Shown one piece after another: positions 16,077 through 63,214 of a stretch of 64,000 bases of DNA. A model generated the notes under the pieces. It made no database searches. It saw only the letters and a program-made list of their open reading frames with translations, and was not told where the DNA came from. Positions within the stretch are counted from its first letter, which is position 1, and each line of letters starts with the position of its first letter. The translations under genes were made by a program, and so were the position numbers. Source of the stretch: Astropecten irregularis (Eukaryota > Echinodermata > Asteroidea > Paxillosida > Astropectinidae); assembly GCA_963971285.1 (NCBI GenBank), contig OZ020254.1, forward strand, positions 16,894,932-16,958,931. The letters run 5' to 3'.

Positions 16077-19000
16077 ATGGTTTTCCAGAGGTGCATCCAG
16101 TTGATCAACAAAGCAAAGATGCCAATTCTTGGTCTTGGGACTTGGAAGGTAAATATAAATAAATTAGTAGCGAATACTAGCGATGAACATAACCCTTGGT
16201 CTAGCCAATGTCATGTACAGCACCACGATAGACTAAACTGGCTTTCATAATTGTGACTTTCTCGTCTTCATCTGAAGTCCAAGCCTGGAGAGGTGACCAA
16301 TGCAGCCAAGGTTGCTCTGGATGTTGGCTATCGTCACTTAGACTGTGCCTATGCCTACGGAAATGAGCCCGAAGTCGGTGCTGGCTTGAAGGCAAAGATC
16401 GACGATGGTACAGTCAAAAGGGAAGACGTTTTCATCACCAGTAAGGTATGTATTAACAAACTATTCTGCAAGTTGAAAATAGGCCAATAGATATGGCTTG
16501 AAGGAAAAGATCGATGATGGTACAGTCAGAAGGGAAGATGTTTTCATCACTAGTAAGGTATGATCACTGCTGCTCTCAGGAACATGCCACTTGTACAAGT
16601 AGTATTATTATGCCCTTCTTTGTCTAGATTCAATATGGTGGTAGATTGAACAAAACACTGGTTTTGAAACTGGTCCCAAGATTGGAACCAAGCAACCAAC
16701 ATGGAAGAATATGCTGAAGAGAAAATAAAAAACAAACAAACAAACAAACAGAAACTGCAACTGCATGCAACGCAAGAGGGGATAAGGCATATCACATTAC
16801 ATGCCTCATATTACCTTAATACCTTCTTTAGTCACTTAACCCTTAACCACCTTCATACCACGTTTTACCACACATGGTTTCTCCTATTGTGAGTGTGGTA
16901 TCCTGAATACCACAATGTGTGGTTTTCGTGGTAAAGCGTGGTTACGTATACTTTATGATATGTCCCCTTGTGGAGACTGTGCTATAAGCATCTCTTGTCC
17001 TCTGTGGTAGATGCAGAGGGTTAACCTTCATAATGCTTTTAATGAATTATATGTTTAAGGTGAAATTACTCTTTACTTTGAATACACAGCTTTGGGCCAC
17101 CAAAATGCACCCTGATGACGTAGAGGGCGCTTGTCTTGAGACGCTATCCATGCTGAAAGTGGATTATCTTGATCTGTATCTCATGCACATGCCATTTTGT
17201 CTCAAGGTATCAGCCATAGCACTTTCTCTATATTTTCCATGGAAGTATACATTGAGTTTTTGCAAGTAGGCCTACTTGTAAATTTATACCATAGAGCTAG
17301 CTTTATGTTTATACGTACTATTTCCATTTAGTCCATAATGTTCAGATTCATGCTAAGAATGTGTCTGCATGTTTTTTTCTTTCTCTTTTTGCAGAGGGAT
17401 GAAACTAACACAGTACTTCCTAGGGATGAAAATGGTGAATTACTGTATGGTGATACTCATTACACAGATACATGGCTGGTGAGTTTATGATGATCATGTT
17501 TTGTGCTAGCTATGAGAAGTATCAGTTTCATGGTGGTTACAACTAAAGATATTTAAATTTGTAATTTGTGAACTTCATGTTTTCTATTCACAGGCTATGG
17601 AGAAACTGGTTGGGAAGGGATTATGCAAAGCTATTGGTGTGTCCAACTTCAACCTTCAGATGATTAAGGATGTTCAAGCCATCTGTACAGTCCCTATTGC
17701 TAATAACCAGGTTAGTATGACCAATAACTATTACACAGGTCTAGGAACTGCGTCAGAGTTCGGCACAAGTCTTCATGAAAACAGTGATTTGAACGTAGAC
17801 CCACTGATGATTTGATGTTGTGTGCTTACAGATTGAGCTTCATCCTTACCTAGTTCAAGAGGAGCTTGTTAAGTACTGCTTCGACTCTAACATATCAGTC
17901 ACTGCATATAGCCCCTTGGGGTCACCGGCTCGCCCTACGTAAGTTCAAACCATTTTTTCCCTCTTTAGGGTCACCCTTAGAGAAAGTAACCACTGACCAG
18001 GAGTACTAAAACAATACATGACCGGGGTCAGCTAGGCAATAATCAGGGAAAGGCAATGACCAGGTTGCACCAAGACCATGACCAGGGGCACCAAGGCAAT
18101 GACTAAGGGCACCAAGGCAATGACCAGGGGCACCAAGGCAATAACCAGGAGGAACCAAGGCAATGACCAGTGGCAGTTAGGCAATGGCCAGGGGCACCAA
18201 GGCATTGATTGACCAGCAGGGACACCAAAGCAATGACCAGGGGCACCAAGGTAATGACTGCGGGCACCAAAGCCGTGTTCCCATTGGACTTTTTTTTCCG
18301 CGGCCACGCGGTAACTTACCGCTACATTCCTTCATGTCAATCTACTGTGCGTTCCCACTTGGACTTTTATTTACCACAGCGGACAGTTTATTGGCCGTAA
18401 TAAGTGAACACATAGCGGACGGTGGACAAATCACCTTTGACTCGAGCAGGATATGACTCATATCTTGACGTAACTTTCGCGCGTCGACAATAATTCTTTC
18501 CAATATATAGACACACACGGTATGTAGATATAAAAAAAATTCTATTCATAAAAGAATCCATGAAAAAGACCGACGTGTCACCGTGACAATAAAACAAGCT
18601 AGCCGCCAGCTAGATGACAAGAAAATAGAGTCGCCAAATTCACGGGCGCAGTCTCGAGGAAATACTAGTGACGATGCCAAAGCACGAACTTGGCCTACGT
18701 CACGAATTGGGCCCATGCAGAAACCCACATCTCAGTGCCCAAATCTGTCAAATCTGAAACATTTTAAGTATTTGAACGAGAAACGTACGTACCGGTACGC
18801 ACACGTACAATATTTACCCGCAGTTTGCCCGCTGATGTTGATGACATGTGCAAGGTGAGACAGGGAATCGTAGTGCAAGTATTTTCGCGCGCTCGCTGTA
18901 CAGCCTGCGTGTGCTGGTGACGTAACACAGGAAGCTGGACTGTTTTACAGCGTGCTCGCGGTACGTTTACCCACGGGAAGTGTTCCCATTGGACTTTTTT

Positions 19001-21927: not shown

Positions 21928-24900
21928 ATGGTTTTCCAGAAGCACATCCAGTTGATCAACAATGCAAAGATGCCAATTCTTGGTCTTGGGACTTGGCAGG
22001 TAAATATAAATCATACATCATAATAGGATGATAGTTGTGATGAACATAACCCTTGGTCTGTCCAACGTCATGTACATGTTACAAAGGTTACGATTACTTA
22101 CTGACTTTTGTTTTGGGGGCCTTACGAAATGAGGCACTCAAAGCTTGGGATTTATTTTGCTAAGAAGTACTGTCATTGTGTGTCCTGATTGAAATAAAGG
22201 GCTTGATATGAGATACATGGCGAAGCAGCCTTTCTTCGGGTTCGTTATGTGGCCCAATGCCAATTGTTTGATTCTCGTAATACGTCATGCTTTTCCGTGA
22301 GCTCCGAAAGCTCTAGAAGTGCAGCAGCCGATTTCACGAAACTTTACGCAGTTGCGTAAGTCCACTTACGCCACGTAATTTGTGGCGTAAGTGGACTTAC
22401 GCAACTGCGTAAAGTTTCGTGAAATCGGCTGCTGAGTTCACAGAGGAGCCTATAGTTCTCGAAGTAGGTTACAATCAGACAATTTCACCTTGACAGTCCA
22501 AGGCAATTTATGATCATCACAAGTTATTGCTGGATATCAGGTCCAATTTACGAACAACAGCTATACATAAATAATACCAACGGTTCTTCTCAGAACCACA
22601 CACTCTCACAGAAGAGATTACATGGTGTCACCGCAAACCTACTTTCTTTTAGTACTTCCACCATGCATAGCTTCAAGTCTTACTTAGCTACAGAAATAGT
22701 ATGGCTTTTGCCCAGCTGAGTCACAGCGCCACTGTGCATAGCTGGGCTTGAGCATGTAGTTAGGTGCTAGCCATCATGAGTTACAGCCGTTTGTATATAG
22801 TTGTTGATTCTGAGCAGCCTGAGTATACTTCATTGTGACTTTCTTGTTCTTCATCTGAAGTCCAAGCCTGGAGAGGTGACCAATGCAGTGAAGGTTGCTC
22901 TGGATGTTGGCTATCGTCACTTAGACTGTGCCTACGCCTACGAAAATGAATCTGAAGTTGGTGCTGGCTTGAAGGCAAAGATCGACGATGGCACAGTAAA
23001 AAGAGAAGATGTTTTCATCACGAGTAAGGTATATATCAACAAACCGCCGTATCCTGCAATTTGAAATAGGCGCCTGTGCAGTTCTTTGAAATAATACAAG
23101 GTCTAGTTGAACGGATCAAGAGTCGTGCACATAAACGCACGCACACCGAAGACCAGCACCGTTCCTAGCAGTTTATCCTTGCGTTTCATCTCTCAAATGC
23201 ATGTTGTAGGCCTATAACAATAATTAAATACTTTTAGACTGACATACATTGCATGATTATACTTAAGTTTAAATCCCCCCCGATAGAAACATGGGGTTGA
23301 TTGTACACACCCCCCCCCCCCCACCTAAAATACTGGGGGATGCAACATCCCCCCCCCCCCGGTATCTACGCCCCTGTTTGAAACTGTGGTAATGTATGGT
23401 AAGCAGCTCTTGTCTTCCGTGACGTAGATGCAGAAGGTTTATAGGGTTAGTCCTCATAATGCTTTTAATGAATAATGTATTTAAAGTGAAATTACTTTTT
23501 ATTTTGAACACACAGCTTTGGAGCACCAAACATCACCCTGATGACGTAGAGGGCGCTTGTCGTGAAACTCTGTCCATGCTGAAGTTGGATTATCTTGATC
23601 TGTATCTCATACACAATCCAATTAGTTTTAAGGTATCGACCATAGCACTTCTTCTATAGCTCTATGTTTATAGCGTGTAACAGCGTATGATATTTGTTCC
23701 ATTCAGTATCATTAGAATTATGTTCAGATTCATGCTGCAATGCTGTTATCTCTCTTTTGCTTTCAGAGGGCCGATGAAACTAATTCAATCCTTCCTAGGA
23801 ATGAAAATGGTGAAATACTGTATGGTGACACTCATTACACAGATACATGGCTGGTAAGTTTATGATGATCATGCATTGTGCTAGCTATGAGAAGTATCAG
23901 TTTCATGTTGGTTGCAAGGTGCAACTAATGATGTATTTAATTTGTAAACTTCATGTTTTCTATTCACAGGCTATGGAGCAACTGGTTGGGAAGGGATTAT
24001 GCAAAGCTATTGGTGTGTCCAACTTCAACCTTCAGATGATTAAGGATGTTCAAGCCATCTGTACAGTCCCTATTGCTAATAACCAGGTAAGTAATGACAT
24101 CAGAGTTCAGCACAAAGTCTTCATGAAAACAGTGATTTGAACGTAGACCCACTGATGATTTGATGTTGTGTGCTTTACAGATTGAGCTTCATCCTTACCT
24201 GGTTCAAGAGGAGTTTGTTAAGTACTGCTTCGACTCTAACATATCAGTCACTGCATATAGCCCCTTGGGCTCACCGAATCATCCTATGTAAGTTCAGTGT
24301 TTGAGTGGAGTCCTCAGATCCGAGTACAGAGTACTCCGAGTACTTCAAGGTCTGAGTACTGGGCCGAGTCCGAATACCAAAGGCAATGATCAGGGACACC
24401 AAGGCAATGACCAGGTTGCACCAAGACCATGACCAGGGGGAGCAAGGCAATGACCAGGGGCACAAAGGCAATGACCAGGGGCAGCTAGGCAATGACCAGG
24501 GGCACCAAGGCAATACCAGGTTGCATCAAGACCATGATCAGGGGGAGCAAGGCAATGACCAGGGGCACGCGCACCCAGGCGATGACCAAGGGCAGCTATA
24601 GGCACTGGCCAGGAACACGAAAGCAATGAACAGGGGCAGCTATATGCACAGTGACCAGGGGCAGCAAGGCAATGAACAGGGGCACCATGGTGACAATGAC
24701 ACCAGGCACTGGCAAACTTTACAGGGCCAACGAGACAATGGCAATGGGTGCTACGCCAATGTAAGAAGCACCAAGGCAGTGACTATATAGGGGCAAAGAG
24801 GCAATGACCAAAGGCACCAGGGCATCAATGCATTAACCAATGAGCACTTACAGACTTAGGCAATATGAACCATCACCCCTGTGCAGCTTCAAATGTACCC

Positions 24901-27160
24901 CTGCGGTAAACGGAGCCATTGGAGGACACAGAAGAACGGCCTCCCTCAAGGAAGTGTGCTCGCCCCTCTGTTGTTCAACATCTACACAAACGATCAACCC
25001 ATCCAACCAGACACAAGATGCTTCCTCTATCCAAGGCAAAAGTGGGATCAAGGAATAATTTCCTTAAGAAGCTCACCAACACTAAGTGGGGTGCCGATCC
25101 AAAGACAGTCCGTACGACAGCACTGGCCTTATATGTTTATACTCAGCTGCAGAGTGTGCATCACCAGTCTGGAGTAGATCATGCCCATGCCATCAAGATC
25201 GATACTGCCTTGAATACCTCCTGCCGGGCAATTACTGGCTGCCTGAAGCCTACAAAAGTTGACCATGAGTGGAATAGCTCGGCTGCCTGAATCCTACAAA
25301 GGTTGACCATGAGAGGAATAGCTCGGCTGCCTGAATCCTACAAAGGTTGACCATGAGTGGAATAGCTCGGCTGCCTGAATCCTACAAAGGTTGACCATGA
25401 GTGGAATAGCTCGGCTGCCTGAAGCCTACAAAGGTTGACCATGAGTGGAATAGCTCGGCTGCCTGAATCCTACAAAGGTTGACCATGAGTGGAATAGCTC
25501 GGCTGCCTGAATCCTACAAAGGTTGACCATGAGTGGAATAGCTCGGCTGCCTGAAGCCTACAAAGGTTGACCATGAGTGGAATAGCTCGGCTGCCTGAAT
25601 CCTACAAAGGTTGACCATGAGTGGAATAGCTCGGCTGCCTGAATCCTACAAAGGTTGACCATGAGTGGAATAGCTCGGCTGCCTGAAGCCTACAAAGGTT
25701 GACCATGAGTGGAATAGCTCGGCTGCCTGAAGCCTACAAAGGTTGACCATGAGTGGAATAGCTCGGCTGCCTGAAGCCTACAAAGGCTGACCATGAGTGG
25801 AATAGCTGGGCTGCCGGAAGCCTACAAAGGTTGACCATGAGTGGAATAGCTCCCCCTAACATCCGGAGGGCAGTTGCATCTTAGAAGGAAAGGCTGAAGC
25901 AGGAAACTGACTGTGGCCACCATCTCTTCAACTATGAGCCATCGAGAAACAGACTGAAATCTAGGCACTGCTTCATGCACTCTGTAGAGGCCTTAAGCAA
26001 CAGTCCTGACAGACAGCGTTCGTCCCTGTGGGCTGAACATCTCTCCCTTTCACCTCATATGGTCCCCATAACAAACCCAAAGGAGGCCCTACCCCCAGAT
26101 GCCAGTGAAGCTTGGCCTTTCTGGTCATGCCTCAACCGACTTAGAACTGCTGTCGGCCGTTGCAAAACCAATCTTGCTTCAAATTTAAAGGAATTCATTT
26201 GAAACATTGTGTGTTATCTTCCAGAGGAAAGGACACTTACCCCAAGCTGATGACTGACCCAGAGATCGTTAGGATCGCTGAGTCAAAGGGAAAGACCCCA
26301 GCCCAAGTGTTGCTCAGATTTGCTCTTGAACGAGGCATCAACTGCATCCCAAAGAGTGTCACAGATTCCAGGATCAGAGCTAACTTTGACGTAAGTTTTC
26401 TAATTTCAGGAAATGTGTCTAAATAAGGACGGTATACAAAATTCAATCTCATTTTCCTTGTTCCTAATAATCTTTCATTGTATCATTTTGAAAATGAGTC
26501 ACTTAGAATGATACTTTAATTGCCCATTGTCTTATGACGTCGTCTTTGATGATTCTTTTATCAGGTATTTGATTTTGAGTTGAGCTCAAAAGACATGAAA
26601 GACCTGATGGCTTTGAACAGAAACTTTCGAGCATGTAGTCTACGTTGGTGAGTCAAGTTATAGCTGCTATAGACTTTCTCCTGTTAATATGGGATCATGA
26701 TCTGGGATGCATTGAAGGGAAATTTCAGGAGAGCCACCAACAAATCTGGAAAATTCAGGGCAAATCTTTGAGTATTAGAGTTACTATCATACATTTTTGG
26801 TAGCATACCAAAACAGAAATCTTCACAGATTTACCTATAGCTTTACAGTGTAGAAAAATGGTAATGGTAGAATCATGAGTGATTTTGTTTTGTCTGAAAT
26901 GTTGTACTTATTCTGAAAAGAGTAAAACCAATTGACACAAAAACATATCAGGGAGATCAAAACGCCAGTGAATACATTTGAAAATACCGTGAGTGTTTTT
27001 CACTGTTTTTTGGTCAATATTATAAAGCTATTTATGGGCCTAATTGCAATTGACTTGTGATTTTACAGGTGTACAAACTCATTCCGAATACCTTCTTTAT
27101 TTTCTATACAGGATCAAAGATGACCATCCCAACCATCCATTCCCTCCGACTACTTCATAA
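21928..27160 (+). CDS. Aldo-keto reductase family 1-like gene, copy 2 (AKR-2)
   Basis: Nine coding exons: 21928-21999, 22861-23028, 23516-23632, 23767-23853, 23970-24086, 24181-24287, 26225-26390, 26565-26647, 27112-27160; 321 residues. The tetrad Asp46, Tyr51, Lys80, His113 is intact, with Trp23 and the IPKS cofactor motif. The residue after His113 is Asn (Leu-Ile-His-Asn-Pro), shared with AKR-3 and unlike the Met of copies 1, 4 and 5. Exon 4 has one extra codon (Arg-Ala-Asp-Glu). Intron 6 is about 1.9 kb because it holds a hAT-end fragment, the 21-bp minisatellite and a broken LINE fragment; intron 1 holds a 111-bp palindrome. The exon 7 acceptor is AG followed by AGG, leaving a choice that one cDNA would settle. 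Expected to be a soluble NADPH-dependent carbonyl reductase. Confidence 0.92.
22323..22433. mobile_element. 111-bp near-perfect palindrome in AKR-2 intron 1
   Basis: AGCAGCCGATTTCACGAAAC on the left pairs with its inverse ending GGCTGCT on the right. The arms are about 52 bp around a 7-base loop (GTAATTT). AKR-3, AKR-4 and AKR-5 have continuous sequence at this point (GAAGTGC followed by the GAGGAGCC block), so this is an insertion specific to copy 2. Confidence 0.8.
23268..23378. mobile_element. C-rich MITE-like fragment in AKR-2 intron 2
   Basis: Runs of C flank GATAGAAACATGGGG on the left, and the right end is GGTATCTACGCCCCTG, of the CAGGGGCGTAGA type found at ends of hAT-like elements. 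It is not in intron 2 of the other copies. Homopolymer lengths are unreliable. Confidence 0.45.
24295..24375. mobile_element. Solo end of a CAGTGTT-type hAT element
   Basis: Starts CAGTGTTTGAGTGGAGTCC and runs into GAGTACTCCGAGTACTT repeats. This is the inverse of the right end of the complete element at 55235-56539. Only one end is left, directly before the AKR-2 minisatellite. Confidence 0.7.
24379..24840. repeat. 21-bp minisatellite, AKR-2 intron 6
   Basis: Degenerate units of the CAATGACCAGGGGCACCAAG type, with longer variants containing CAGGTTGCACCAAGACCATG. The Asn-Asp-Gln-Gly-His repeats in translation are a by-product. Confidence 0.85.
24894..26180 (+). pseudogene. Broken non-LTR retrotransposon reverse transcriptase fragment
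   Basis: Translation gives [20 protein letters not shown], the reverse transcriptase block just before the catalytic motif in jockey-like LINEs. It is followed by [15 protein letters not shown] and by [14 protein letters not shown], typical of the region after the polymerase core. After a 44-bp minisatellite (25241-25853) the C-terminal part resumes: [11 protein letters not shown], a stop, [10 protein letters not shown], then [15 protein letters not shown]. The YADD catalytic motif and the thumb region are missing through an internal deletion, and frames are broken, so it cannot encode an active enzyme. Other AKR copies have continuous sequence here (GTGCAGCTTCAA followed by TTAAAGGAATTC), so the LINE fragment inserted in AKR-2 only. 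Confidence 0.85.
25241..25853. repeat. 44-bp minisatellite inside the LINE fragment
   Basis: About 14 units of exactly 44 bp, each starting GCCTGAATCCTACAAAGG (or GCCTGAAGCC) and ending GGAATAGCTCGGCT, with almost no variation. The first unit is the reverse transcriptase codons for CLKPTKVDH. Since 44 is not a multiple of three, the expansion destroys the reading frame. High homogeneity implies recent expansion. Confidence 0.95.
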
Positions 27161-35400: not shown

Positions 35401-37248
35401 AGGCAATGACCAGGGGCACCAAAGCAATGACCAGGGACAGCTCTAGGCAATGACCAGGGACACCATGATGACAATAACACCAGGCACTGGCAAACTTTAT
35501 AGGGCCAGCAAGACAATGGCAAGGGGTGCTATTAAAGCCAATGTTAGAAGCACCAAGGCAGTGACTAGGGGCAAAGAGGCAATGACAAAAGGCACAAGGG
35601 CATCAATGCATTAACCAATGGGCACTTACAGACTTCGGCAATATGCACCGTCACCCCTGTGCAGCTTCAAGTCTTTGCTTTTAAATTTAAAGGAATTCAT
35701 TTGAAACATTGTGTGTTATTTTCCAGGGTAAGGGACACTGACCCCAATCTGATGACTGACCCAGAGATCGTTAGGATCGCTGAGTCAAAGGGAAAGACCC
35801 CAGCCCAAGTGTTGATCAGATTTAATCTTGAACGAGGCATCATCTGCATCCCAAAGAGTGTCACAGATTCCAGGATCAGAGCTAACTTTGACGTAAGTTT
35901 TCTAATTTTATATCATATTGTGCTTATGGAAATGTGCAAAGCCAAAATTAAGATGGTATTGTAGTGTATTTATAGCCTGGGAAAACAGACTAACAGACAT
36001 GTCACCTGCGTAGGATTGCTGTTCAAGATGGATGATTTATTTATTCACTCCCAAAGACAGACCTATCATTATCAGTCAATCCAAAACCATTTATAATCCA
36101 TTATATTAATGAATACAGAGTACTTGTTTACATCAATTTATAACCTGAAAAACCAAAATAAAAGCCTCCATCCCATTTCCAAGTTACAGTCAAAGGTTTA
36201 GCTGAAAACTTACCAACCGATCCCCTCCAAGGATTTAGCTATAATTTCTACCAAGCTTGGGCATCACTAACGAAGAAATCTCTCATCATTCCTCATGGAG
36301 ACATGTTACATTCATAAACTAATTCCGGCAAGAGCTCACAAAGTAGGCCCAGGCCCAGCCACTCACTAGGCTACCATATTAATCCGCCTTCCTCCCAGAA
36401 CTTAAAACACAATAAAATACGGGTTACAAAAGAAACCTGATTTTGTTACATCACAATACTGCAATTAATATTTACTTAGACCTTAATAAACCCCCTTTTA
36501 TATCAAGAATGGTGTTTATAATCCAAAAAGTTGCACCCCATAACAATCTCTAATCACATATAACTACGCGTCACAACTAAAGTGACAGAGCGCCCTCTAT
36601 AGACCAACAAAATCATTCAACAATAAAGCAAAGTTTCCGTTCACCACAGTATAATAATTATTAAAAATTTGAATCCCCTTTTCCCCGTTGAAAATGAGTC
36701 ACTTATATACTGTTGTCCATTGACTTCTTTGCGTTTCTTTCAGGTGTTTGATTTTGAGATGAGCCCAAAAGACATGAAAGATTTGATGGCTTTAAACAGA
36801 AACTTTCGAGCATGTGATTTTAGTTGGTGAGTCTTATTAGCTGCTATAGATTTCCTATACTAATTATAGGATCTTGATCTATTTTTGGTAGCATACCAAA
36901 ACAGAAATCTTCACAGATTTACCTATAGCTTTACAGTGTAGAAAAATGGTAATGGTAGAAACATGAGTGATTTTGTTTTGTCTTAAATGCTGTACTTATT
37001 CTGAAAAGAGTAAAACCAATTGACACAAAAACATATCAGGGAGATCAAAACTCCAGTGAATACATTTGAAAATACCTTGAGTGTTTTTCACTGTTTTTTG
37101 GTCAATATTATAAAGCTGTTTATGGGCCTAATTGCAATTGACTTGTGATTTTACAGGTGTACAAACTCATTCCGAATACCTTCTTTGTTTTCTATACAGG
37201 GTCAAAGATGACCATCCCAACCATCCATTCCCTCCGACTACTTCGTAA
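32494..37248 (+). CDS. Aldo-keto reductase family 1-like gene, copy 3 (AKR-3)
   Basis: Nine coding exons: 32494-32565, 33289-33456, 33842-33958, 34155-34238, 34704-34820, 34952-35064, 35727-35892, 36744-36826, 37200-37248; 322 residues. Asp46, Tyr51, Lys80, His113, Trp23, Tyr212 and IPKS are all present. As in AKR-2, His113 is followed by Asn-Pro. Exon 6 is 6 bp longer than in the other copies (Asn-Arg-Pro-Leu-Phe before the donor), which lengthens the C-terminal side of the substrate pocket by two residues. Intron 7 holds a copy-specific insertion (about 35965-36690) and intron 4 a T1 element. The upstream region is split by inserted DNA. Predicted cytosolic NADPH-dependent reductase; substrate unknown. 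Confidence 0.92.
34311..34664. mobile_element. T1-family miniature transposon in AKR-3 intron 4
   Basis: Starts after TTAA (34307-34310) with GGTACTATCATACTTTGG and ends near TATGATATTACTTTC. The right target copy is degraded. It carries the CATACCGAAACAGAAATCTC and GCTCACGAATCTGCATTTCT interior blocks of the family. Confidence 0.65.
35205..35640. repeat. 21-bp minisatellite, AKR-3 intron 6
   Basis: Degenerate CAATGACCAGGGGCACCAAG-type units in the same position as in the other copies. The array ends before the conserved GTGCAGCTTCAAGTCTTTGC block that precedes exon 7. Confidence 0.85.
35965..36690. other. Copy-specific insertion in AKR-3 intron 7
   Basis: About 725 bp between sequences that are adjacent in AKR-5 (GTGCAATGCCAAAGTTAAGATGG on the left, CCCTTTTCCC near the right). 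It has no coding potential that I recognise and no clear terminal repeats. It is AT-rich and could be a retroelement piece. Confidence 0.5.
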
Positions 37249-37600: not shown

Positions 37601-37667
37601 GATAATAAGACACATCGATCATTACCAAGATATGGTACACAGTACATTTTGTGTAAAGAACCTTTAA

Positions 37668-44445: not shown

Positions 44446-44512
44446 GATAATAAGACACATCGATCATTACCAAGATATGGTACACAGTACATTTTGTGTA
44501 AAGAACCTTTAA

Positions 44513-48700: not shown

Positions 48701-51700
48701 TCCACTTTGTCAGAAGTATACATTGAGTTTTTGCAAGTAGGCCCACATGTAAGAGCTATACATGTAGCTCTATGTTTATACGTGTAACAGCGCACGATAT
48801 TAGTCCATTCAGCCCATTATGTTCAGATTCATGCTGCAATATGCTCTTTTCTCTCTTTTGTTTTCAGAGGGATGAAACTAACACAGTACTTCCTAGAGAT
48901 GAAAATGGTGAATTACTGTATGGTGACACTCATTACACAGATACATGGCTGGTAAGTTTATGATGATCATGTTTTGTGCTAGCTATATGAGAAGTATCAG
49001 TTTCATATTGGTTATATACAACTATAATGAATCTGTTTAAAGTAATTTGTAAACTTCATGTTTTCTATTTACAGGCTATGGAGAAACTGGTTGGGAAGGG
49101 ATTATGCAAAGCTATTGGTGTGTCCAACTTCAACCTTCAGATGATTAAGGATGTTCAAGCCATCTGTACAGTCCCTATTGCTAATAACCAGGTAAGTAAT
49201 GACATCAGAGTTCAGCTAAAAGTCTTCATGAAAACAGTGATTTGAACGTAGACCAACTGATAATTTGATGTTGTGTGCTTACAGATTGAGCTTCATCCTT
49301 ACCTGGTTCAAGAGGAGCTTGTTAAGTACTGCTTAGACTCTAACATATCAGTCACTGCATTTAGCCCCTTGGGCTCACCGGCTCGCCCTACGTAAGTTCA
49401 AACCTCGGGACTCTGGAGCCCCAATCAGTCTGTTCTATTTCCCCCCTCTTATAGCTTTACCTATACTAGGATTTGTGTGGTATTTGATATATGGTTCTGA
49501 CCAAACTGAATATGCATTGAGTTTCTTGCAGTACACATGGTTGTACATGGAGGATATCTCAATTTAAGGCTTGAGATACACACACACATTTTAGGGTCGC
49601 CCTTAAAAGGCAATGACTACTAACCAGGGGTACCAAGGCAATGTATGACTAGGGGAAGCTAGGCAATGACCAGCAGGGCAACACGGCATGACCATGGGCA
49701 CCAATGCAATGACCAAGGACACCAAGGCAATGACCAAGGACACAAAGGCAATGGCCAGGGGCATCAAGACAATGACCAAGGACACCAAGGCAATGACCAA
49801 GGACACCAAGGCAATGGCCTGGGGCATCAAGACAATGACCAAGGACACCAAGGCAATGACCAAGGACACCATCAAGGCAATGACCAGGGGCATCAAGACA
49901 ATGACCAAGGACACCAAGACAATGACCAAGGACACCAAGGCAATGACCAAGGACACTAAGGCAATGACCAAGGACACCAAGGCAATGACCAAGTAAACCA
50001 AGGCAATGGCCAGGGGCATCGAGGCACTCACCAGGCAAATAAAGGCAATGCATGACGAGGGGCAGCTAGGCAATGATCAGGGGCGGACCAAGGGCGCACC
50101 AAGGCAATGACCAGGGACTGGCAAATACTGGAGCCAGCAAGACAATGGCAAGGGGTGCTAAGCAAACCAATGGGTACTTATATCAACACTATCACCCCTG
50201 TGCAGCTCCAAGTCTGTGTCTTGCATTTCAATAAAACAACTTTCATTTGAAATATTGTGTGTTATCTTCCAGGGCAAAGGACACTGACCCCAATCTGATG
50301 ACTGACCCAGAGATTGTTAGGATCGCTGAGTCAAAGGGAAAGACCCCAGCCCAAGTGTTGATCAGATTTAATCTTGAACGAGGCACCTTCTGCATCCCAA
50401 AGAGTGTCACAGATTCCAGGATCAGAGCTAATTTTGACGTAAGTTTTTCTTAAGAGCATAATGTGCAATGCCAAAGTTAAGATGGTTTATTAAAAATCAA
50501 TTCCCTTTTCCCTGTTGAACAGTATTCATTTGTATCATTTTGAAAAAAGAGTCACTTAGAATGATACTGTTAGCCATAGTCTTTTGACGTCTTTTACCTT
50601 TCTTTTATCAGGTATTTGATTTTGAGTTGAGCCCGAAAGACATGAAAGACCTGATGGCTTTGAACAGAAACTACCGAGCGTGTGCTTTTACTTGGTGAGT
50701 CTTACCTGCTATAGACTTAGGCCTAAGTTCCTACTGTCATAGAATCATAACCTGGGATACAGTGGAGGGGAATCTCAGGGGAAACAGGTCAACTCGCCCC
50801 GTAGCCGACTCACCCCTTACCGACTCGCCCCCTCCCCGACTCGCCCCCTCCCCGACTCGCCCCCTGACCGACTTTTGTGGTTTTTGTCCTTAATAACGAT
50901 GTTTTTGAGTTTTTGTGACTCTTTGAGATAAAATAACCATTTTTTGTTTTATTATTCGATGTTCTTTCTTAACATATTTTGATATCGATTAGCGTTTTGT
51001 TTTAAAATGTCTTGCTTTAAATTAAACTTTAAGTGTTATTGTTGACATCATTTTGTAGACTTTTTTCATTATGACGATACGTTTTGTTCTATGGTTTGTT
51101 TTAAGTATGTTGTTGCTGTTGACTTGTTTTTCTTGTTTTTAAGTTGCGTTTTTAAAGTTTTGATGTTAGTTCTGCGAAGGAAATATTAAATTGCTTGAAC
51201 TGCAATCGAATCATGCAGGAGTTTGTGTGTGGACTTTGTGCATTTTTCGTTCTTAATCATAATTATGTTTGACATAAACACATAGGCCTAGTAGGCCCTG
51301 CAAAAGGGTCAGAAGCATTTGGTTATTAATTATGATGCATAATCAACTTCACATTTTGCATCTCATTTCTGAATAGATTAGGGGGCGAGTTGGCCAGGGG
51401 GCGAGTTGGTCAGGGGGCGAGTCTGCTAGAGAGCGAGTAGGGGAGGGGGCGAGTCGGGGAGGGGGCAAGTCGGTAAGGGGCGAGTCGGTAAGGGGCGAGT
51501 CGGCTAGGGGGCGAGTTGACTTGTAATCATTTCAGGAGAGCCACCAACAAATCTGGAAAATTCAGGGCAAATCTTTGAGTATTATACATAGGTAGCATAC
51601 CAAAACAGAAATCGTCACAGATTTACCTGTAGCTTACAGGGTATAAAGATGGTGATGGTGGAAACTGGAAACATACCGTTAAATTGCTCCTACCTAAAAT

Positions 51701-52290
51701 GCTGTACTTATCCTGAAAAGAGCAAAACCACTTTACAAAAAAACAAACAAGTTTTGATCTCGGGAGATCAAAACTCCAGTGAATAGATTTGAAAATACCG
51801 TCAGTGTTTTTCACTGTTTTCTCAAAAGTTGAACACCGTACGATCCCTGGAAATTTCACAGATGACTGTTTGTGTATCCGTGTGGAAATTTGTGCCCATG
51901 AATTTGCATTTCCGTGACAAAAAGTATGAAATTATCTTTAAACCCGAAATGAAAAGCTGACAAATACAAAAAAGTTTTATACGAGACTCAGTGTTTGCGA
52001 TGTAAAAGTGTCATTTTTTATTTTACAGCAGGTTTCATTTCGTATTATTTTGTTCATGCATAAAAACAGAAGTTTATATCGTGAAAGGATTTTTTTTTTT
52101 TTTCAGATATTAATTTCTTTTTATTCAATTTCACTTGAAAAAATGGTGGGTCGTTATTAAAAAGCCGATAGGCCTAATTATAATTGATTTTACACTTTTT
52201 GTACAAACTTGTTCTGGATACCTTCTTTGTTTTCTATACAGGATCAAATATGATCACCCCAACAACCCATTCCCTCCGACTACTTCATAA
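45749..52290 (+). CDS. Aldo-keto reductase family 1-like gene, copy 5 (AKR-5)
   Basis: Nine coding exons: 45749-45820, 47514-47681, 48555-48671, 48868-48951, 49075-49191, 49285-49391, 50273-50438, 50612-50694, 52242-52290; 320 residues. The tetrad Asp46, Tyr51, Lys80, His113 and Trp23 are present. The nicotinamide-stacking Tyr is Phe212 (Ala-Phe-Ser-Pro-Leu-Gly). The Ser-Pro-Ala-Arg-Pro-Thr loop at the exon 6/7 junction matches AKR-1, whereas exon 7 (Phe-Asn-Leu-Glu-Arg-Gly) matches AKR-3, giving a mosaic. The C-terminus differs slightly (Tyr-Asp-His-Pro-Asn-Asn). Intron 1 carries a 979-bp foldback element and intron 8 another. The usual upstream block with the candidate response element has been lost, so its regulation may differ. 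Confidence 0.92.
45952..46033. mobile_element. 82-bp hairpin element A with 9-bp target duplication
   Basis: Begins TAGACCCGTAAACAGGGCCC and ends with the inverse, GGGCCCTGTTTACGGGTCTA; the arms are 32 bp. The flanks CGATGATCG (45943-45951 and 46034-46042) are identical, a 9-bp duplication as made by Mutator-type transposases. It sits inside the left terminal repeat of the foldback element. Confidence 0.85.
46094..46175. mobile_element. 82-bp hairpin element B with 9-bp target duplication
   Basis: Begins TAGACCCAGTAACTGGGGCG and ends with the inverse. The arms are 22 bp around a longer loop. The flanks ATGTCAGAC (46085-46093 and 46176-46184) are identical over 9 bp. Length, TAGACCC terminus and duplication size match hairpin A although the inner stems differ. 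Confidence 0.85.
47921..48205. mobile_element. Degraded T1-family element in AKR-5 intron 2
   Basis: Starts after TTAA (47917-47920) with AGGTAGTATCATACTTTGG and the AAGAAACCAAAAGAGAAATG block. The right part diverges and resembles the inner part of family T2 (CAGGTTTTCACTATTTTCTCG), so it may be a hybrid or a truncated copy. Confidence 0.5.
49605..50160. repeat. 21-bp minisatellite, AKR-5 intron 6 (most homogeneous)
   Basis: About 20 units, the central ones nearly identical (CAATGACCAAGGACACCAAG plus one base). The array yields repetitive open frames of up to 156 codons on the minus strand and about 100 on the plus strand; these are artefacts of a unit divisible by three. Confidence 0.9.
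50785..51523. mobile_element. Foldback element with CTCGCCCC-repeat arms, AKR-5 intron 8
   Basis: 739 bp starting CAGGTCAACTCGCCCCGTAG and ending with the inverse (GGGGGCGAGTTGACTTG). The left arm has about five units close to CGACTCGCCCCCTCCC (16 bp) and the right arm about nine inverted units. The AT-rich spacer between them has no gene I recognise. The flanking intron sequence is continuous in AKR-2 and AKR-4, so the insertion is copy-specific. Confidence 0.85.
51590..51944. mobile_element. T1-related element in AKR-5 intron 8
   Basis: Carries the family blocks GTAGCATACCAAAACAGAAA, GTATAAAGATGGTGATGGTG and the right end AAGTATGAAATTATCTTTAA. Degraded copies sit at the same intron position in AKR-1 (about 19789-20020), AKR-2 (26809-27050), AKR-3 (36883-37130) and AKR-4 (43745-43990), so the original insertion predates the array. 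Confidence 0.65.
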
Positions 52291-54642: not shown

Positions 54643-57600
54643 ATGGTTGTCCAAAAGTACATCGAACTGCCAAACAAAGCAAAGATGCCCATTGTTGGAC
54701 TTGGTACATGGACCGCTTGGACGGTAAGATTTATCGATATTATTTTTGTGATGCTTTTGAGTGCTAGGATAACGACAAACAAAATGTGAAGTACACACTA
54801 GCTAGAACTACTAGTTAGTACATGTACACAAAATTCGTGTCACGTAGAGACTATTATTATGGCATGCTGCATGCAATTCATGAATAAAGTAAAAAGGAAA
54901 AAACTAGTGACAGTGTCCATACTTATATAGGCAGTTCATAATTCTATAGGCCATTGCTTGATAATTAAACTCAAATCCTCATCTTCCATTTGAAAACACT
55001 TCAAGCATGCTTGATTGAATAAAGACTATAAGTATGAAGCAAGGCTTTCAAACATTCGATATTGTTGAATTTCAAAGAAATATCACATTTCTAGAAAGTA
55101 CATTGGAATACGGTGCTATAGCCTATACAGTGTAAGTGTAATTATTATTATTAATTATTCAAGGGATTTAACTATTACATGGTGTCTCAAAGCAAACCCC
55201 ATTCTATGCCATGCAAAACGGTCCCCCTTGATAGCAGTGTTGTAGTAACTCGAGTCCACAAAAGTACTTGGCCCGTACTCGATTAAAAGTACTCGAAAAC
55301 AAAAAATGTACTTGGCCCGTACTCGATCTGATGTACTCGAATTGTGGCCCGTACTCGACGTTAAGTACTCTGTACTCGATCCCAGTACTCGATAATTTCC
55401 GATACAAAAAATTGAATTAATTCCCCTTTTCGTCGATGACATTGCTCAACCTCGAACATATCGTAAGCGCGATATCAAGTAGCACGATATCCATAATTAT
55501 TATAATGTGTAGAAGGCTTTCCTTGCATTTGGTACGGTGTGCGTGCGTGCATACATGTAGTGGAGTTAGTGGTTAGCGCGGCCCGAATTGGGCCCAATGC
55601 CCAATCATGGTTGGGTCAAAATTATGCGCTATACATGTATACACATGTACACTCCATGGTACATTCTCAATTGGTACATATTTGTGTTTACTCCGTACAC
55701 TTCGTGTCACGCTCGTGTATTCCCCTGCCGTGTATATATATTGCATGACACTTAATTTGGCAGACTTTACATATTCCGAAGCGAAGGTATCATGTTGGCG
55801 ATATCTGATATCATACATTATGTTTGTTCCAGGTCTTTCTTTATACCCTGTCAATTATACATAGATCTGTTTGGGTTTCCTACCAAAGTACGATAGTACT
55901 TTTCAAGGTTATTTGTCAAAAAAATGCAGTTTCATGCAAAAATATCAACAACGATACAGCAAATATCCAGTTCCACGGTACCCATGCCATTTCCTTTTAG
56001 AAAAACGGTGAAAACGCTCACTGTATACGAGTTATGATCTCACCCTGAGATCCAAAGTGTTTTTGGCTTGTGATTAATTTTTTTCTTTCCTTTTTAAATA
56101 CAACATTTTAGGCAGAAAAGGTTTTGCCATTATATTTGTACCATCACTATCTTTATACCTAAAGTTTGATAAAAAGCACTGTTCAGTGTTCATACAAGGT
56201 ATTTTGACTATTTTGTTAAGTCCAGAGAGAATAAAGGGCAGTTGTTTTTGTTTCTTTTAAATTTACCTGTTGACTGTGTTGTGTAATAAAGAGACTTTAT
56301 TAAACACGACTGTCATGAACTGCATTTGTTGGTACTGTGCATTGGTTCTGTGCATGTACTCGGACCGGGACACGAACTTTGGTACTCGGACTCGGCCCTG
56401 TACTCGACCTTGAATGTAGTCGGACTCGACACCTAGGACTTGGACTCGGCAGCAATGTACTCGGACTCCCCCCAGTACTCGGACTCTGAAGTACTCGGAG
56501 TACTATGTACTCGGATCTGAGGACTCCACTCCAACACTGCTTGATAGTACAGTATATTTCCATTGTGATTTTTGTACTGAGTAGTTTTAGCAATCTCAAC
56601 AATTAATACACACCGTAATCTTCAAGTCTAATTTAATTCTCTCTTATCATTTTCTTTGTGTGAACTCCAAGCATGGAGAGTTGACAAATGCAGTCAAGGT
56701 TGCTCTGGATGTTGGCTATCGTCACTTAGACTGTGCCTACGCCTACGCCAATGAATCTGAAGTCGGTGCTGGATTGAAGGAAAAGATCGACGATGGCACA
56801 GTCAAAAGGGAAGACGTTTTCATCACTAGTAAGGTATATCATACCTCATCATACAGAAATGATTTCTGCTCCAGAAACAACTTTCAGACCAAGTAGATCT
56901 CAGAGAGATCATACGTTGTCATACGTCAACTTCTTATAAGAAAATAATTTGTTTTTCTGATTTTGAACACATTATACATGCTGTAGCTTTGGAACACGAA
57001 ACACCACCCTGATGACGTAGAGGGCGCTTGTCGTGAGACTCTATCCATGCTGAAATTGGATTATCTTGATCTGTATCTCATGCACTGGCCAATGTGTTTC
57101 AAGGTACCTACTATTGAATTTAATGTAACTATTTTCCAGTTGATGAATGTTATGATTATGATGAAAGGCAAGGGGCTGGAGGTCATATTATGCCATACAC
57201 GTTTCACTTTACCACCACAAGAGGGCGCTATAGAGGCTATGGGAGCTTACGAAACGGAGGCTCGGGCTCAGGCTCGGGCTCCAGCTCTGACACCCATAAT
57301 TATGCTGAAAATATAGGTTGTGGTTTATCATTGAAGCTGAAGCTCTGTTTTCCTTTTCAAACCAGAGAATCTACTTCCGAACCAAAAGCCTCCATTTTGA
57401 TACCCGTTATTTTAGAATGGATTCAAGGAATGGAGCCGGTGTAAAGGTTATATCTGTCCCCCCTCAAAACGTGTCCCCCCGGACAGATTCAGCCAGCTAA
57501 AAGTGTCCCCCCGCCGTGTTAATTATGTCCCCCCTGAGTTTAAATTGTCCCCCTCCATGTAATTTGTGTCCCCCCTGCTGGGCTCTATTTCATAAAGAGT

Positions 57601-60600
57601 ACTTAGGAATCTTCCTAAATAAAATGTTCCTAAATAACTAAGGAACAATTTGGAAAAGACAATTCTTATCTTAGGAAGAAAGAATCTTCCTTAGTTTGGA
57701 ACAATTTTTGTAAAATAAAATGAAAAGTTCCTATCTTTAATGATAGTGAAAGAGCCTGAGGTCAAATATGCCCTTGACCCAGCTGCAGAGGATTTTGCAA
57801 ACTTAGATTCCACCATTTTGTTTTGCAAAAAAAGGAAAGAAAAATGGTAAGTTTATCACTAAATTCCCATCATTTATATATTCACTGCTGATTAACTTTT
57901 AGATGTCAACATTCTCTATTCAATGAGACCAAATTTAGCAGATAGAAGCAACAAATTAATGCAGTTTTTCAAGCAAGAATGTCAATCTAGCTGGAGAAAG
58001 CTTACACCATGTACACAGCATTATCATTATGCATGCAATGCATAGCCATAGCCTATGCACAGTGTATACTTATAAATAGGCCTATCGGAGTAACGTTACA
58101 CTACAGCACAGATAGGCTTGGCCTATTATTATAATCACTGTTGCATTCATGTGCACTACACTCAAAACTAGGTCTTATCATTTGGGAGAATCACTATTTC
58201 ATCCATGAGTGATGATGCTTTGAAGAATTTTAGAAGATTTGGGGCTTATTTTTTTTAAATTTGTACAACAACTTAAAGTTAAACGCTCGCACTGTTGGTT
58301 TTGACTTAGGTCATCCAAATAATTAGGCCTATGGCTGTAGGCCTACATGTACTGTGGGCAGCCTTTAAGGCCCTAGTTGTACTTGTACTTGTAGAGGCCT
58401 AAACTATAATTAGGCCTAGCCTATTGCTGTTTATGTATAGGCTAGTACTACTATAGTTCTAGTACTATAGCCTAACCCTTCAATAACAAGTACCGATAAT
58501 TAGGTTTCTGCATTACTACCACCGTAGACGGCATTAATTTTCATACAGCATTAAATTCAAATGCAACTCCTGTGACAGCAATATTTCTTGGTCTATATGT
58601 TTCAAGTGAACAACCAAATTATGAATGATTCTGTATTTAGGTTCAACCTTTGGCTATTCCATGAGTACTTCCAAAAAGGTATCAGTATTTTTTTGTATTT
58701 ACCATGCACAAGTAGAAATAGAAAAACAATTGACTTTTTACTTTCATTTAAATCACGGTATACTGAATTCTCTTTTTTTCATACACATGATACAGGTTGA
58801 AGAGCGAAAGGCCAGGTACTAGCAGAAATGTACCCAGGCTGTAAATGCTGTGGGAGGCAATGGAAGGGAGTGGAAGAAAGTGAGAAAGCAGTGGTTTTCT
58901 CTGAAGGACAGGGTAAAGAAGTTGAGGAGTGAGATGGGACAAACTGGTAAATGTTGTCATTAAAATGTTATTGGAATGCTATATTATAGTGCTAGTGTTC
59001 AAAACACTTATTTATTTAAATTGCCATGTACACATTATTTGCAGCACTTTCCAATCTAAAATATGTACCTTGTGTGAAATTGGTATTGTGCAAATTTTAA
59101 AATCACTTTATTTTTGTTACTGAGTGCATTTATAATTCAGACAAATTAAACTCAGACAAATATCCATAGTTGTAACTGGGCACTTTTACCACTTCATTTA
59201 TTCCCAATATTATTTATGAACATACATGTATTTTTAATGAATGTTTGATTTTCAGGAGGTGGTCCAAAACCTGACATTTCAAAAGCCATGCACCTCTGCA
59301 TGAAGTCATGGCAAGGGAGTCATTGGAGGGCATCAGAGGCAAGGACACAGAAGTGGACCCAACTGGTGCTGAGACACCTCGACATGTCACAGGTAATATT
59401 TCTTTGGACTCTCACCTCCACAACCACCCCCATCATCCCAAAAAGAAAGAAGCATAGACAAGGACAGATTGAATGAACAAACAAATCAATGGAGAAAAGC
59501 CCCTCAAATTTATTCACAATCTTTGATCACTCAATAAAACAGTCAATAGTAAAAATTATCCTATGCCATGTGTGCTGTCTGAATTAGTAGGATTAATTTC
59601 CACATGAAATGGTGTTACCATTTTCAACTTAGGATTCCTCCCAAGATGTGGCAACCCCAACTACATCAGCTGATGTACCACCGGCAACAAGAGCAGAACA
59701 CATGGCAGAAGCAACCCCTTCAACGACTGCCTTCACTGCCTTACAGGATCAAGTACATCAGCTGCAGGAACAGATTCAGGCAATCTCCTCCCAGCCATCT
59801 TCTCTCCAAAGGGCAACTGAAATTAGGCAGCTCAAGTTTCATGAGGAGCTCTTGAAACTTGAGAAAGTCAAGATTAACCTCCACCGCCAAAATTTAGAGG
59901 TTAAAAAAAATATATCAGTTGCCCTTGATTCAATTGCATCACAAGCACTACTCAAGTCAATGTGTGAGCAATAATTTTATTTCAGAAATCATTTTAACAT
60001 TTTAAACCAACCCCTTGGTGACAAATTGATTTTTAAAGGGTTGCTGCAGTGCCTTTTTCAGTCAGGTTATTTTATTGCCTTCATACAGAGAATGTACTGA
60101 CAAATAATGAATGGCATGTCTTATTTTGGTTTCAAACCTGCATTTGGTTTTCCTTTGAATGGCTTTGTAAAACGGGGGATTTTCACGCATACTCATGTAG
60201 GGAACCAACAGAAAAAATATAATGAAAAAACATAGAAAATGAAGATGCAAACTTGACCTACAGAAATGGTTTGGTAAAAAAATTACACCACCAGTTGAGT
60301 GAAAATAAAGTTGGCACCAGTTGGCAAAATAAAACCCATTGAGGAGGAAAAGGTCTGTCAGAAAACCTATAGATAAAACAACCGCTGAATTTAACCCTGA
60401 ATCAGTGTGAGGAAGTGGGTAAAATCACAGTCCCCATGTACAGTTTTTATATTGGCACATGTTCAAGCCATAATATTCCCATTGCAGAGACCCTTTAATA
60501 TCACATTTCTGGTTTTTCTATGTACATGTACATACAGACATAGTTTCATGTTCAAATTCAGGCTCTATCAGTTTGATTTGCATCAGCAAAAATACTGAAG

Positions 60601-63214
60601 GAAAGGAAAACTGACTGGGAAATTCAAAGATTTACATGTATGTGAAAACTGGTTGGGAAATTCAAAGATTTGCATGTATGTGAAAACTGACTGGGAAATT
60701 CAAAGATTTACATGTATGTTAAAACTGACTTGGAAATTTTAAGCTTAATCGGCCAGCTGAGTCCCAAGAGAATATTATTGAAAAACTTAGTCAATTATTT
60801 TCTTATAATATATAAAGAATACTGTAGTTTTGATCATGCGTGACAAGAAATTTCAAGTCAAGTGTTTTCTAAAAAAGAAATATACATCTTATAATAAGCA
60901 TTTTGGACAGGAATATTTTAACAGCAAAATCATAATGAGATCATACAGTGTGTGTGGCTTGAAATAAAGATTCCTTTGTGGGAATAAAGTCATGTATGCA
61001 ACTATATTGAAGTCTCAACCTCATTGTGATAATTGTTTTGTTTTCCTTGTCATCAAATCTTTTTATTGTAATTTTATTTAGATTAAGCTGGTAGGTTCAA
61101 AACGTCAGGCATTCCCAATCCCAAGAATGATTATTTTAGGCTCTTATTTTGGTTGATTAGCGGTTTGCAGCAGTTTATTACTTCCTCATCATTTAGAATT
61201 TTGCTGGGAGAAACATCTTAAAAAACATGTGTCATATTTTCCATCCACCATTCAACTAATTTTCCCATAATTAAAACGACAAATAAAATATCCCTAGAAA
61301 TAATCACGTTGAAGTTTGATCAGTTTCCAATCATGTAAAGGGTTTTACATCGGGAATAAAAATAGCACGGGTATGCAGTTCCTATAGTTTTATTATGTAG
61401 ATAAATACTTTCTACCGATTGAGGGCGCTGTTTATTCTTATGTTTTTTCTGTACGTAAATTTTGACGATTTTCTATCGCAAATTTCTCTTTAGGGAACAC
61501 AAATTGGACGTGGGAACAAATCGATTCTTGTTCAGTAATGTCAGATCTACATCCATGCCGAATGGGAACAAATTCGGTAATGATGGTCACGTATAACTCA
61601 AAAACTAAAGCGAATTTGGCCTCACGGCCCACGGACTATAATTATGGCCGATCATACACAGCCGATCCGCGATCCGTCCACGTATAGAAATCCACAGTTC
61701 ATCATCTTTGACGTGATCTAACAGAGCATTAAAATTCATGCTTCTTCTCACCCTGCCCTAAAACAATGTAAAATGCACTAACGTAGTCTGGGTGGTAGAC
61801 TGGTTACGTATCACGAGGTGGGGGACCAATCTAACCGGGGGACACAATTAACCTTTGGAGGGGGACAGATATAATTTGAGGGGGACAGATTCATCCATGT
61901 AAACGTGTCCCCGCGGACAGCTGTATATGGCCGCAACGGCGTAAATGTGTCCGCGCGGACTCGTTTTGAGGGGGGACAGATATAACCTCTACACCGGAGC
62001 CTATAGTCGGAGCCTGAGCCTCCGTTTTATGAATGCCCTATGAGACTTTTCAGACACATTGCAGACAGCTAATACGTGACTCGACTGTGTACATATACAC
62101 ACAATTTGTACCCAAACACGTACAAAGTTGCCATAGCACGTACGGTTTGCACGTGTTGATACTGACCAGAGATAGGCTATTGATGCGAAAGCAGAAAAGT
62201 GGATTTATCCAAAACGTTAAATCTGCAAAAAGAGATGACCACTTTCGAACCACTAGCTACGTGTCACAAGCGTTCAATCTGCGTTCTTGGAAGGCAGAAA
62301 TGCAAAAAAGTGTATTCATCAAAAACGTTCAATCTGCTTTTTTTATAGTAAGAAAAGTGAAAATGCAGATGTCTACTTTTTTACCGAAGTTTACGGGTAA
62401 AATCTAACATTTGCTTTTCTGGTAGCAGAAAACCAGAAAAGTGCATTTTACCAAAATGTTCCATCTGCTTTTCTCCTTAGACTTAGAAAAGTAGAAAAGT
62501 GCATTTTACAAAAGCGTTCGATCTGCTGTGTTTTGCTATTTGGAGAGCAGAAAAGCATATGTCCACTTTTGAACCTCCATACCTCTTGTCTTGTGCAGTG
62601 TAAATGTACAGGGTTTAGGGTTATGATGTATTTTCATATTCGTTTTTATGTTTTTATGTTAGAGGGGTGAAAATACCTTTCCCGTAGATGAGAATGAACA
62701 AACATTGATTGGTGACACTCATTACACTGACACATGGCTGGTAAGTAAGTAAATACATTGTGCCAATATCACAAGAAGCTTTTTAGTTCTAGACCAAATG
62801 GCCTATCGTACAATAGAAACATCAATAAATTTGACCCAAATTCAACATTTTGTTATCGTTTTCTAAGGCTTTGGAGAAACTGGTTGGGAAGGGATTATGC
62901 AAAGCTATTGGTGTGTCCAACTTCAACCTTCAGATGATTAAGGATGTTCAAGCCATCTGTACAGTCCCTATTGCTAATAACCAGGTAAGTATGACTAATA
63001 ACTATTACACAGATCTAGGAACTGCCTCAGAGTTCAGCAAAAAGTCTTCATGAAAACAGTTATTTGAACGTAGACCCACTGATGATTTGATGTTGTGTGC
63101 TTTACAGATTGAGCTTCATCCTTACCTGGTTCAAGAGGAGCTTGTTAAGTACTGCTTAGACTCTAACATATCAGTCACTGCATTTAGCCCCTTGGGCGCA
63201 CCGAATCGTAGTTG
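54643..63214 (+). CDS. Aldo-keto reductase family 1-like gene, copy 6 (AKR-6), 3' end outside window
   Basis: Six coding exons visible: 54643-54723, 56672-56833, 56987-57103, 62663-62740, 62868-62984, 63108-63214; 220 residues, with exons 7-9 beyond 64,000. Exon 1 is the most divergent of the array and three codons longer (Gly-Thr-Trp-Thr-Ala-Trp-Thr). Exon 2 compensates by using an acceptor six bases further in (CTCCAAG before CATGGAGAG). The tetrad Asp47, Tyr52, Lys81, His114 is intact. His114 is followed by Trp, the usual residue in aldose reductases and unique in this array. The nicotinamide-stacking residue is Phe211. Exon 4 is two codons shorter and strongly changed, yet exons 5 and 6 with intron 5 are almost identical to other copies. 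Intron 3 is 5.6 kb owing to a transposon. Confidence 0.88.
55235..56539. mobile_element. hAT-type element with 8-bp target duplication, AKR-6 intron 1
   Basis: 1305 bp with termini CAGTGTTGTAGTAACTCGAG and the inverse type (GGACTCCACTCCAACACTG). It is flanked by a perfect 8-bp duplication, CTTGATAG (55227-55234 and 56540-56547). Both arms are runs of GTACTCGGACTC-like words; an inner block at about 55835-56165 resembles the T1 family, so one element may have jumped into another. No transposase frame is seen. Another end of this family is at 24295-24375. Confidence 0.85.
58796..59974 (+). pseudogene. Myb/SANT-like (NAIF1/Harbinger-associated type) gene remnant
   Basis: Three likely exons: 58796-58946, 59256-59392, 59633-59974. 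The first encodes [18 protein letters not shown] and then [19 protein letters not shown] across the splice, the second half of the Myb/SANT-like DNA-binding domain found in NAIF1-like and Harbinger-associated Myb proteins. An in-frame stop (58820-58822) follows VEERKARY, and the helix in between is missing. The second exon stays open into the third, but a better family match ([14 protein letters not shown]) lies in the +1 frame, suggesting frame shifts. The last exon gives a Gln/Leu-rich coiled coil ([36 protein letters not shown]) and ends in TAA. An upstream exon ending near 57846 (CKKRKEK) is possible. Probably a decaying gene, not a host gene. Confidence 0.65.
60607..60740. repeat. 38-bp tandem repeat, about 3.5 copies
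   Basis: AAAACTGACTGGGAAATTCA followed by AAGATTTACATGTATGTG, repeated with few changes inside the 4.6-kb transposon. Confidence 0.85.

Follow-up and report, generated by a model that had tools for sequence, protein, structure and literature searches.

Conversion between the human fetal globin genes ends at a simple repeat within an intron. These genes are named in a review as a case of gene conversion (PMC3966223), and in Caenorhabditis, conversion tracts cluster at 50–200 nt (12–2,958 bp across one survey), and introns are reached by 15% of the detected conversion events (PMC3966223). In human genes, minisatellites belong to the sequence types that are frequently observed next to conversions (PMC3966225). 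For aldo-keto reductase (AKR) genes, work on pig AKR1C mentions conversion in general terms (PMC1586007), and for a structural variant of human AKR1C1/AKR1C2, repair by gene conversion has been suggested (PMC10655400). Judged by titles and the opening lines of abstracts, we found among the papers listed no AKR cluster with the block pattern described below.

Here, we analyse a window of 64,000 nt from the sea star Astropecten irregularis (contig OZ020254.1, assembly GCA_963971285.1), to which all positions refer.

An array of AKR1-type genes

The window contains six aldo-keto reductase genes, arranged head to tail on the plus strand. By their splice models, AKR-1 (16077..20134, 320 aa; exon models and translation), AKR-2 (21928..27160, 321 aa), AKR-3 (32494..37248, 322 aa), AKR-4 (39165..44104, 319 aa), and AKR-5 (45749..52290, 320 aa) have nine exons each and complete frames of 319–322 residues. 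In AKR-6 (54643..63214), exons 1–6 form an open frame and the remainder of the gene lies past the end of the window, which comes 786 bases beyond exon 6. The initial annotation had drawn attention to the differing lengths of exon 4 in AKR-4 and AKR-6 and of exon 1 in AKR-6, and the exon coordinates bear these out: exon 4 measures 84 bp in AKR-1, AKR-3, and AKR-5, 87 bp in AKR-2, 81 bp in AKR-4, and 78 bp in AKR-6, and exon 1 measures 81 bp in AKR-6 versus 72 bp in AKR-1 to AKR-5.

The Aldo_ket_red domain (PF00248) was detected in both of the copies scanned, AKR-1 (E = 3.4e-54) and the partial AKR-6 (E = 1.4e-41). AKR-1, the one copy of the six that was searched against solved structures, has human AKR1B1 as its best match (E = 1.9e-101), and the best 60 of its 165 structure matches comprise aldose and aldehyde reductases, NADP+ alcohol dehydrogenase, FR-1, CHO reductase, AKR1B, AKR1C4, 3-oxo-5-beta-steroid 4-dehydrogenase, and prostaglandin-E2 9-reductase, enzyme names that we take to denote AKR1 members. 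In a six-row alignment read by eye against the AKR1B1 row, from which we assume the positions of the catalytic tetrad, Asp, Tyr, Lys, and His are present in all six copies, with Asp in HLDCA..Y and Tyr five residues further on, Lys in ITSKLW, and His in L(M/I)H. The array is an ordinary tandem cluster of AKR1-type aldo-keto reductase genes.

The window has several further features. AKR-6 is without the usual exon 2 acceptor; its frame is preserved because the acceptor has moved and exon 1 is longer (56640–56680 and 54700–54723). Intron 2 of AKR-1 carries a partial duplicate of the 3' end of exon 2 (16495–16557), with 56–59 of 63 bases as in the six exon 2 copies. In AKR-2, intron 1 contains a match to the histone 3' UTR stem-loop (22577–22621; RF00032, 37.2 bits), and intron 6 holds a 44-bp tandem repeat of 14 copies with 97% matches (25237–25852). 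A dispersed repeat, about 370 bp at its longest, occurs in both orientations at eight places, namely 4920–5289, 34306–34668, 37736–38001, 44562–44854, 47910–48096, and 63417–63791, and, in the opposite orientation (minus strand), 7737–7888 and 41180–41465. An assembly gap of 200 N spans 1115–1314.

A uniform block within a diverged gene

Exon 5 is 117 bp long in every copy (17594–17710, 23970–24086, 34704–34820, 42023–42139, 49075–49191, and 62868–62984 in AKR-1 to AKR-6, respectively, all on the plus strand). According to the initial annotation, any two copies of this exon differ by at most about four bases, even at silent sites, and both statements hold: over all 15 pairs we count 0–4 differences per 117 bases, with the maximum of 4 in AKR-2/3, AKR-3/4, and AKR-3/6 and none in AKR-1/5 and AKR-2/4, and the mean silent difference over the same pairs is 0.040. 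The exon-by-exon comparison of silent divergence that the initial annotation had proposed likewise came out as predicted over the six copies, with values per silent site of 0.040 and 0.063 for exons 5 and 6 versus 0.135–0.242 for exons 1–4 (0.222, 0.191, 0.135, and 0.242, in order; means of 15 pairs). For exons 7, 8, and 9, which were compared among AKR-1 to AKR-5 (10 pairs), the means are 0.045, 0.295, and 0.179. Over the six copies, exon 5 is thus the most uniform exon, though others are uniform too. Counted as codon columns with silent variation, exons 5 and 6 together have 5 of 64 (permutation P = 0.0023), and singly 3 of 36 (P = 0.046) and 2 of 28 (P = 0.058), respectively.

Exon 5 stands out owing to AKR-6. 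Among AKR-1 to AKR-5 alone, neither exon 5 (3/36 columns, P = 0.27) nor exons 5 and 6 combined (6/65 columns, P = 0.20) are significantly low. In these five copies, 8 of the 107 columns in exons 5–7 are silent-variable (P = 0.018, the exons having been grouped post hoc); the counts are 0/17 for exon 1 (P = 0.08) and 2/42 for exon 7 (P = 0.058). Long silent-identical runs extend through exons 4–7 in AKR-2/4 (P = 0.0002), AKR-2/5 (P = 0.0066), and AKR-4/5 (P = 0.021), the P values being per pair and uncorrected for ten pairs; the other 7 of the 10 pairs show no unusual silent-identical run.

The uniform region extends beyond exon 5 and forms a homogenised block of exon 5, intron 5, and exon 6, in which the last codons of exon 6 vary (17594..17938, 23970..24287, 34704..35064, 42023..42375, 49075..49391, and 62868..63214 in AKR-1 to AKR-6, plus strand). 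The view that the neighbouring exons diverge applies to the tail of exon 6 and fails for its first 30 codons, whose silent sites vary about as little as those of exon 5: among AKR-1 to AKR-5, the silent difference is 0.040 for codons 1–30 and 0.226 for the tail, and in the pairs with AKR-6, it is 0.020 and 0.120 (2 of 17 sites), respectively. As had been noticed from the letters, intron 5 of AKR-6 also shares sequence with the rest; the 20-mer concerned is common to all six copies, exact in five and with one mismatch in AKR-5, and has no occurrence in 100 shuffles. Compared with AKR-1, the block of AKR-6 is 99% identical in exon 5, 94% in intron 5, and 89% in exon 6.

Outside the block, AKR-6 is strongly diverged and is probably an older copy. 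Its introns 1–4 have no blastn match to those of AKR-1 to AKR-5 in 19 of the 20 comparisons, the sole match covering 11% of intron 3 in AKR-4/6, whereas its intron 5 matches all five copies at 86–98% identity over 61–100% of the shorter intron. The silent difference of its exon 1 from the other copies is 0.57–0.64. Throughout exons 1–4, silent-different codons between AKR-6 and AKR-1 to AKR-5 number 22/109, 25/112, 27/114, 18/111, and 26/113, respectively (16–24%), versus 3/67, 0/65, 3/69, 0/67, and 1/69 in exons 5 and 6 (0–4.5%), with permutation P values of 0.0029, 0.0001, 0.0005, 0.0001, and 0.0001. In all five AKR-6 pairs, the longest silent-identical run reaches exons 5–6 (P = 0.0001–0.0094). 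Exon 5 taken alone has zero silent differences in four of these pairs and 3 in 37 in AKR-3/6, where it is not significantly low (P = 0.10).

In the alignments, AKR-6 becomes similar to the other copies right at the start of exon 5, and this resemblance weakens over the closing codons of exon 6. The roughly 125 bp on the 5' side of exon 5 are 43–51% identical over aligned columns, versus 86–94% for intron 5; with a more permissive aligner, the 40 bp before exon 5 of AKR-6 reach an identity of 0.65–0.68, slightly above a baseline for unrelated sequence of 0.59 (sd 0.06). High identity within the tract at silent and noncoding sites, set against a diverged flank, is thus seen for AKR-6 on the 5' side. 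The phylogenies differ in the terminal branch of AKR-6, which measures 0.175 for exons 1–4 and 0.0097 for exons 5–6, so that gene trees built from exons 5–6 would make this gene look recent. Bootstrap values near AKR-6 are weak to moderate (e.g., 47 for exons 1–4, and 38 and 80 for exons 5–6). When applied to the block, the AU test rejects the tree topology of exons 1–4 (P = 0.0196); in the opposite direction, it yields no rejection at 5% (AU P = 0.060).

Probable gene conversion and its alternatives

We consider it very likely, with a probability of roughly 0.85, that interlocus gene conversion repeatedly copied the block between paralogues, AKR-6 included. A segment of about 330 bp, comprising exon 5, intron 5, and the first 30 codons of exon 6, would have moved between the genes. 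The transfer was presumably non-reciprocal, i.e., conversion and not crossing over, and presumably directed into AKR-6, for which the donors appear to have been mixed. The outer ends of the tract would lie where homology gives out, at the diverged intron 4 and the variable tail of exon 6, and selection for differing substrate-loop parts (the exon 3 tail and exon 4) may shield those parts from overwriting.

The initial annotation had proposed repeated conversion over exons 5–6. This proposal is partly supported: the silent and intron 5 contrast in AKR-6 favours it, though the contrast is carried mainly by that gene, and exon 7, as well as exon 1 in AKR-1 to AKR-5, is low too (each non-significant singly). 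The pattern therefore looks like a patchwork, not like one exon 5–6 event. A GENECONV-like run test, which had been named as a further check, did not reach global significance for the block: at coding sites, the best run in exons 5–6 is that of AKR-5/6 (P_pair = 0.012, P_global = 0.083), and with silent sites only, P_global for exons 5–6 is 0.12. The test is weak for the block, probably because homogenisation leaves little variation to work with (variable sites: 5 of 116 in exon 5 and 11 in exon 6). The only runs with P_global < 0.05 are in exons 1–2 of AKR-2/3 (0.033, six-copy comparison) and exons 8–9 of AKR-2/4 (0.0065, five-copy comparison). Together with long stretches of high identity, such as 26169–27754 with 43110–44668 (93.6%) and 36881–38318 with 43737–45170 (95.6%), these runs show that exchange or recent duplication acted elsewhere in the array too.

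Within the block, the sites are mosaic. Among ten informative sites, 21 of the 45 pairs fail the four-gamete test, applied without a control for homoplasy, and with this incompatibility several transfers fit better than one. A gap in intron 5 is common to AKR-2 and AKR-5. Intron 5 of AKR-6 has a full-length match in AKR-1 alone; over 86% of the shorter intron, AKR-2 is the closer copy, at 98%; and exon 6 of AKR-6 has sites in common with AKR-3, AKR-4, and AKR-5. A single donor for the block of AKR-6 was considered and is not supported, given these mixed sites among the five copies.

AKR-6 could instead be a chimera, produced by one unequal crossing over in or just before exon 5 and composed of an old 5' half and a recent, AKR-1-like 3' half. 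The sharp change at its intron 4/exon 5 junction and its AKR-1-like intron 5 would follow from such an event, and its exons 7–9 fall outside the window. We nevertheless regard this origin as improbable: at exon 6 sites, AKR-6 agrees with AKR-3, AKR-5, and AKR-4 over AKR-1, a pattern that fits no one donor from this set of five, and the 40 bp after its exon 6 are near the baseline (0.55–0.68 vs 0.59), although AKR-1 to AKR-5 differ there too. Moreover, divergence in AKR-6 is lower in exons 2–3 than in the introns, perhaps a sign of several transfers. An even smaller chance attaches to purifying selection, by which the block would hold either a conserved nucleotide element, such as a splicing enhancer or a structured or small RNA, or a strongly constrained protein segment. 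In favour of such constraint, coding sequence makes up about two thirds of the block, the 3' half of intron 5 varies very little, and intron 5 of AKR-5 folds better than its shuffles (z = −2.98); for AKR-1 and AKR-6, however, intron 5 shows no such advantage over shuffled sequence (z = 0.84 and 1.43), and no intron 5 has an Rfam match at the gathering threshold, the histone 3' stem-loop outside intron 5 being the one match in the window. A functional RNA in intron 5 was accordingly set aside, with no Rfam match and a low z in one of the three introns folded (AKR-1, AKR-5, and AKR-6). Intron 5 is less uniform in its 5' half, which AKR-6 and AKR-1 have in common but which is mostly absent from AKR-2 and AKR-5 and changed in AKR-4; this distribution and the mosaic sites of the block also speak against constraint. 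At the protein level, exon 5 of AKR-1 is 50% identical to human AKR1B1, the third lowest value among the nine exons (30–83%; one protein pair), and on this one pair, protein constraint on exon 5 is not supported either.

Recent duplication alone, with every copy young and the low value of exon 5 due to chance, agrees with the unexceptional level of exon 5 among AKR-1 to AKR-5 (P = 0.27), and for some pairs of these five genes, recent duplication is a possible account. AKR-6, by contrast, can hardly be young, given the silent difference of 0.57–0.64 in exon 1 and the lack of a match for introns 1–4 in 19 of 20 comparisons, yet its block is near identical to the others. Recent duplication is contradicted for this gene, and as an explanation of the whole pattern, we give it almost no credence.

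Enzyme parts, an intronic minisatellite, and known systems

Of the eleven protein parts compared in AKR-1 to AKR-5, the tail of exon 6 changes fastest (replacement difference 0.236); the tail of exon 8 (0.186), columns 1–19 of exon 4 (0.151), and the tail of exon 3 (0.146) come next. Judging from the structure of AKR1B1, the substrate pocket (Trp111 and loop A) would be lined by the exon 3 tail and exon 4, loop C would fall in the last exons, and exon 5 would hold cofactor contacts. In AKR-4, whose exon 4 lies at 41832–41912, the first 19 columns of this exon differ from the other four copies by 0.276 per site at replacement versus 0.150 at silent positions, an excess that, over few sites, hints at diversifying selection. 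Selection against overwritten substrate parts would sharpen the contrast between exons.

In each of the six genes, a 21-bp minisatellite with the unit GGGGCACCAAGGCAATGACCA lies 3' of exon 6; its orientation is the same throughout, and the first unit starts 21–284 bp past the exon. It occupies 18025..18270 in AKR-1, 24380..24839 in AKR-2, 35234..35617 in AKR-3, 42631..43079 in AKR-4, 49627..50113 in AKR-5, and 63235..63880 in AKR-6 (all plus strand), where it is degenerate and interrupted by the dispersed repeat at about 63422–63791. All 73 unit matches in the 64 kb (up to 5 mismatches, both strands) fall in intron 6, and five mononucleotide shuffles gave none; for AKR-6, whose exon 7 is beyond the window, the stretch after exon 6 was counted as intron 6. 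The minisatellite is flanked by exons 5, 6, and 7, the exons with the three lowest mean silent differences. Tentatively, it might act as a conversion hotspot retained in every copy, with breaks that start transfers upstream into exons 6 and 5 and downstream into exon 7. The cofactor-binding core would then stay uniform, and the substrate-loop parts (from the tail of exon 3 to exon 4, as well as exon 8) would go on differing. We think this role rather doubtful; the minisatellite could also be just an old feature of intron 6. If the hotspot reading were true, a noncoding repeat would determine the portion of an enzyme that undergoes concerted evolution, and the link, if it holds, would provide a testable case of a repeat steering this process. 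The shared intron 6 minisatellite is the new element here and is worth follow-up.

Like the vertebrate AKR1B and AKR1C clusters, the Astropecten array consists of tandem AKR1 genes, and the nearest solved structure to AKR-1 is human AKR1B1; the accounts of pig AKR1C and human AKR1C1/AKR1C2, in the portions available to us, describe no conversion at the level of exons such as that proposed for the block of AKR-6. With interlocus conversion in other tandem families, such as the human fetal globins and those of Caenorhabditis, the locus shares a homologous block in diverged flanks and mosaic sites. It differs from these cases in that introns 1–4 of AKR-6, the presumed recipient, have diverged too far for blastn to match them in 19 of 20 comparisons, and in its adjoining repeat, a 21-bp minisatellite that each of the six copies carries. 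Gene conversion is a well-known process, which the present case resembles in a neat form. The array would thereby be a clear case, found in nature, of a single block overwritten by conversion within an otherwise strongly diverged paralogue, and of modular evolution within one enzyme, with its core exons uniform and its substrate-loop parts diverging.
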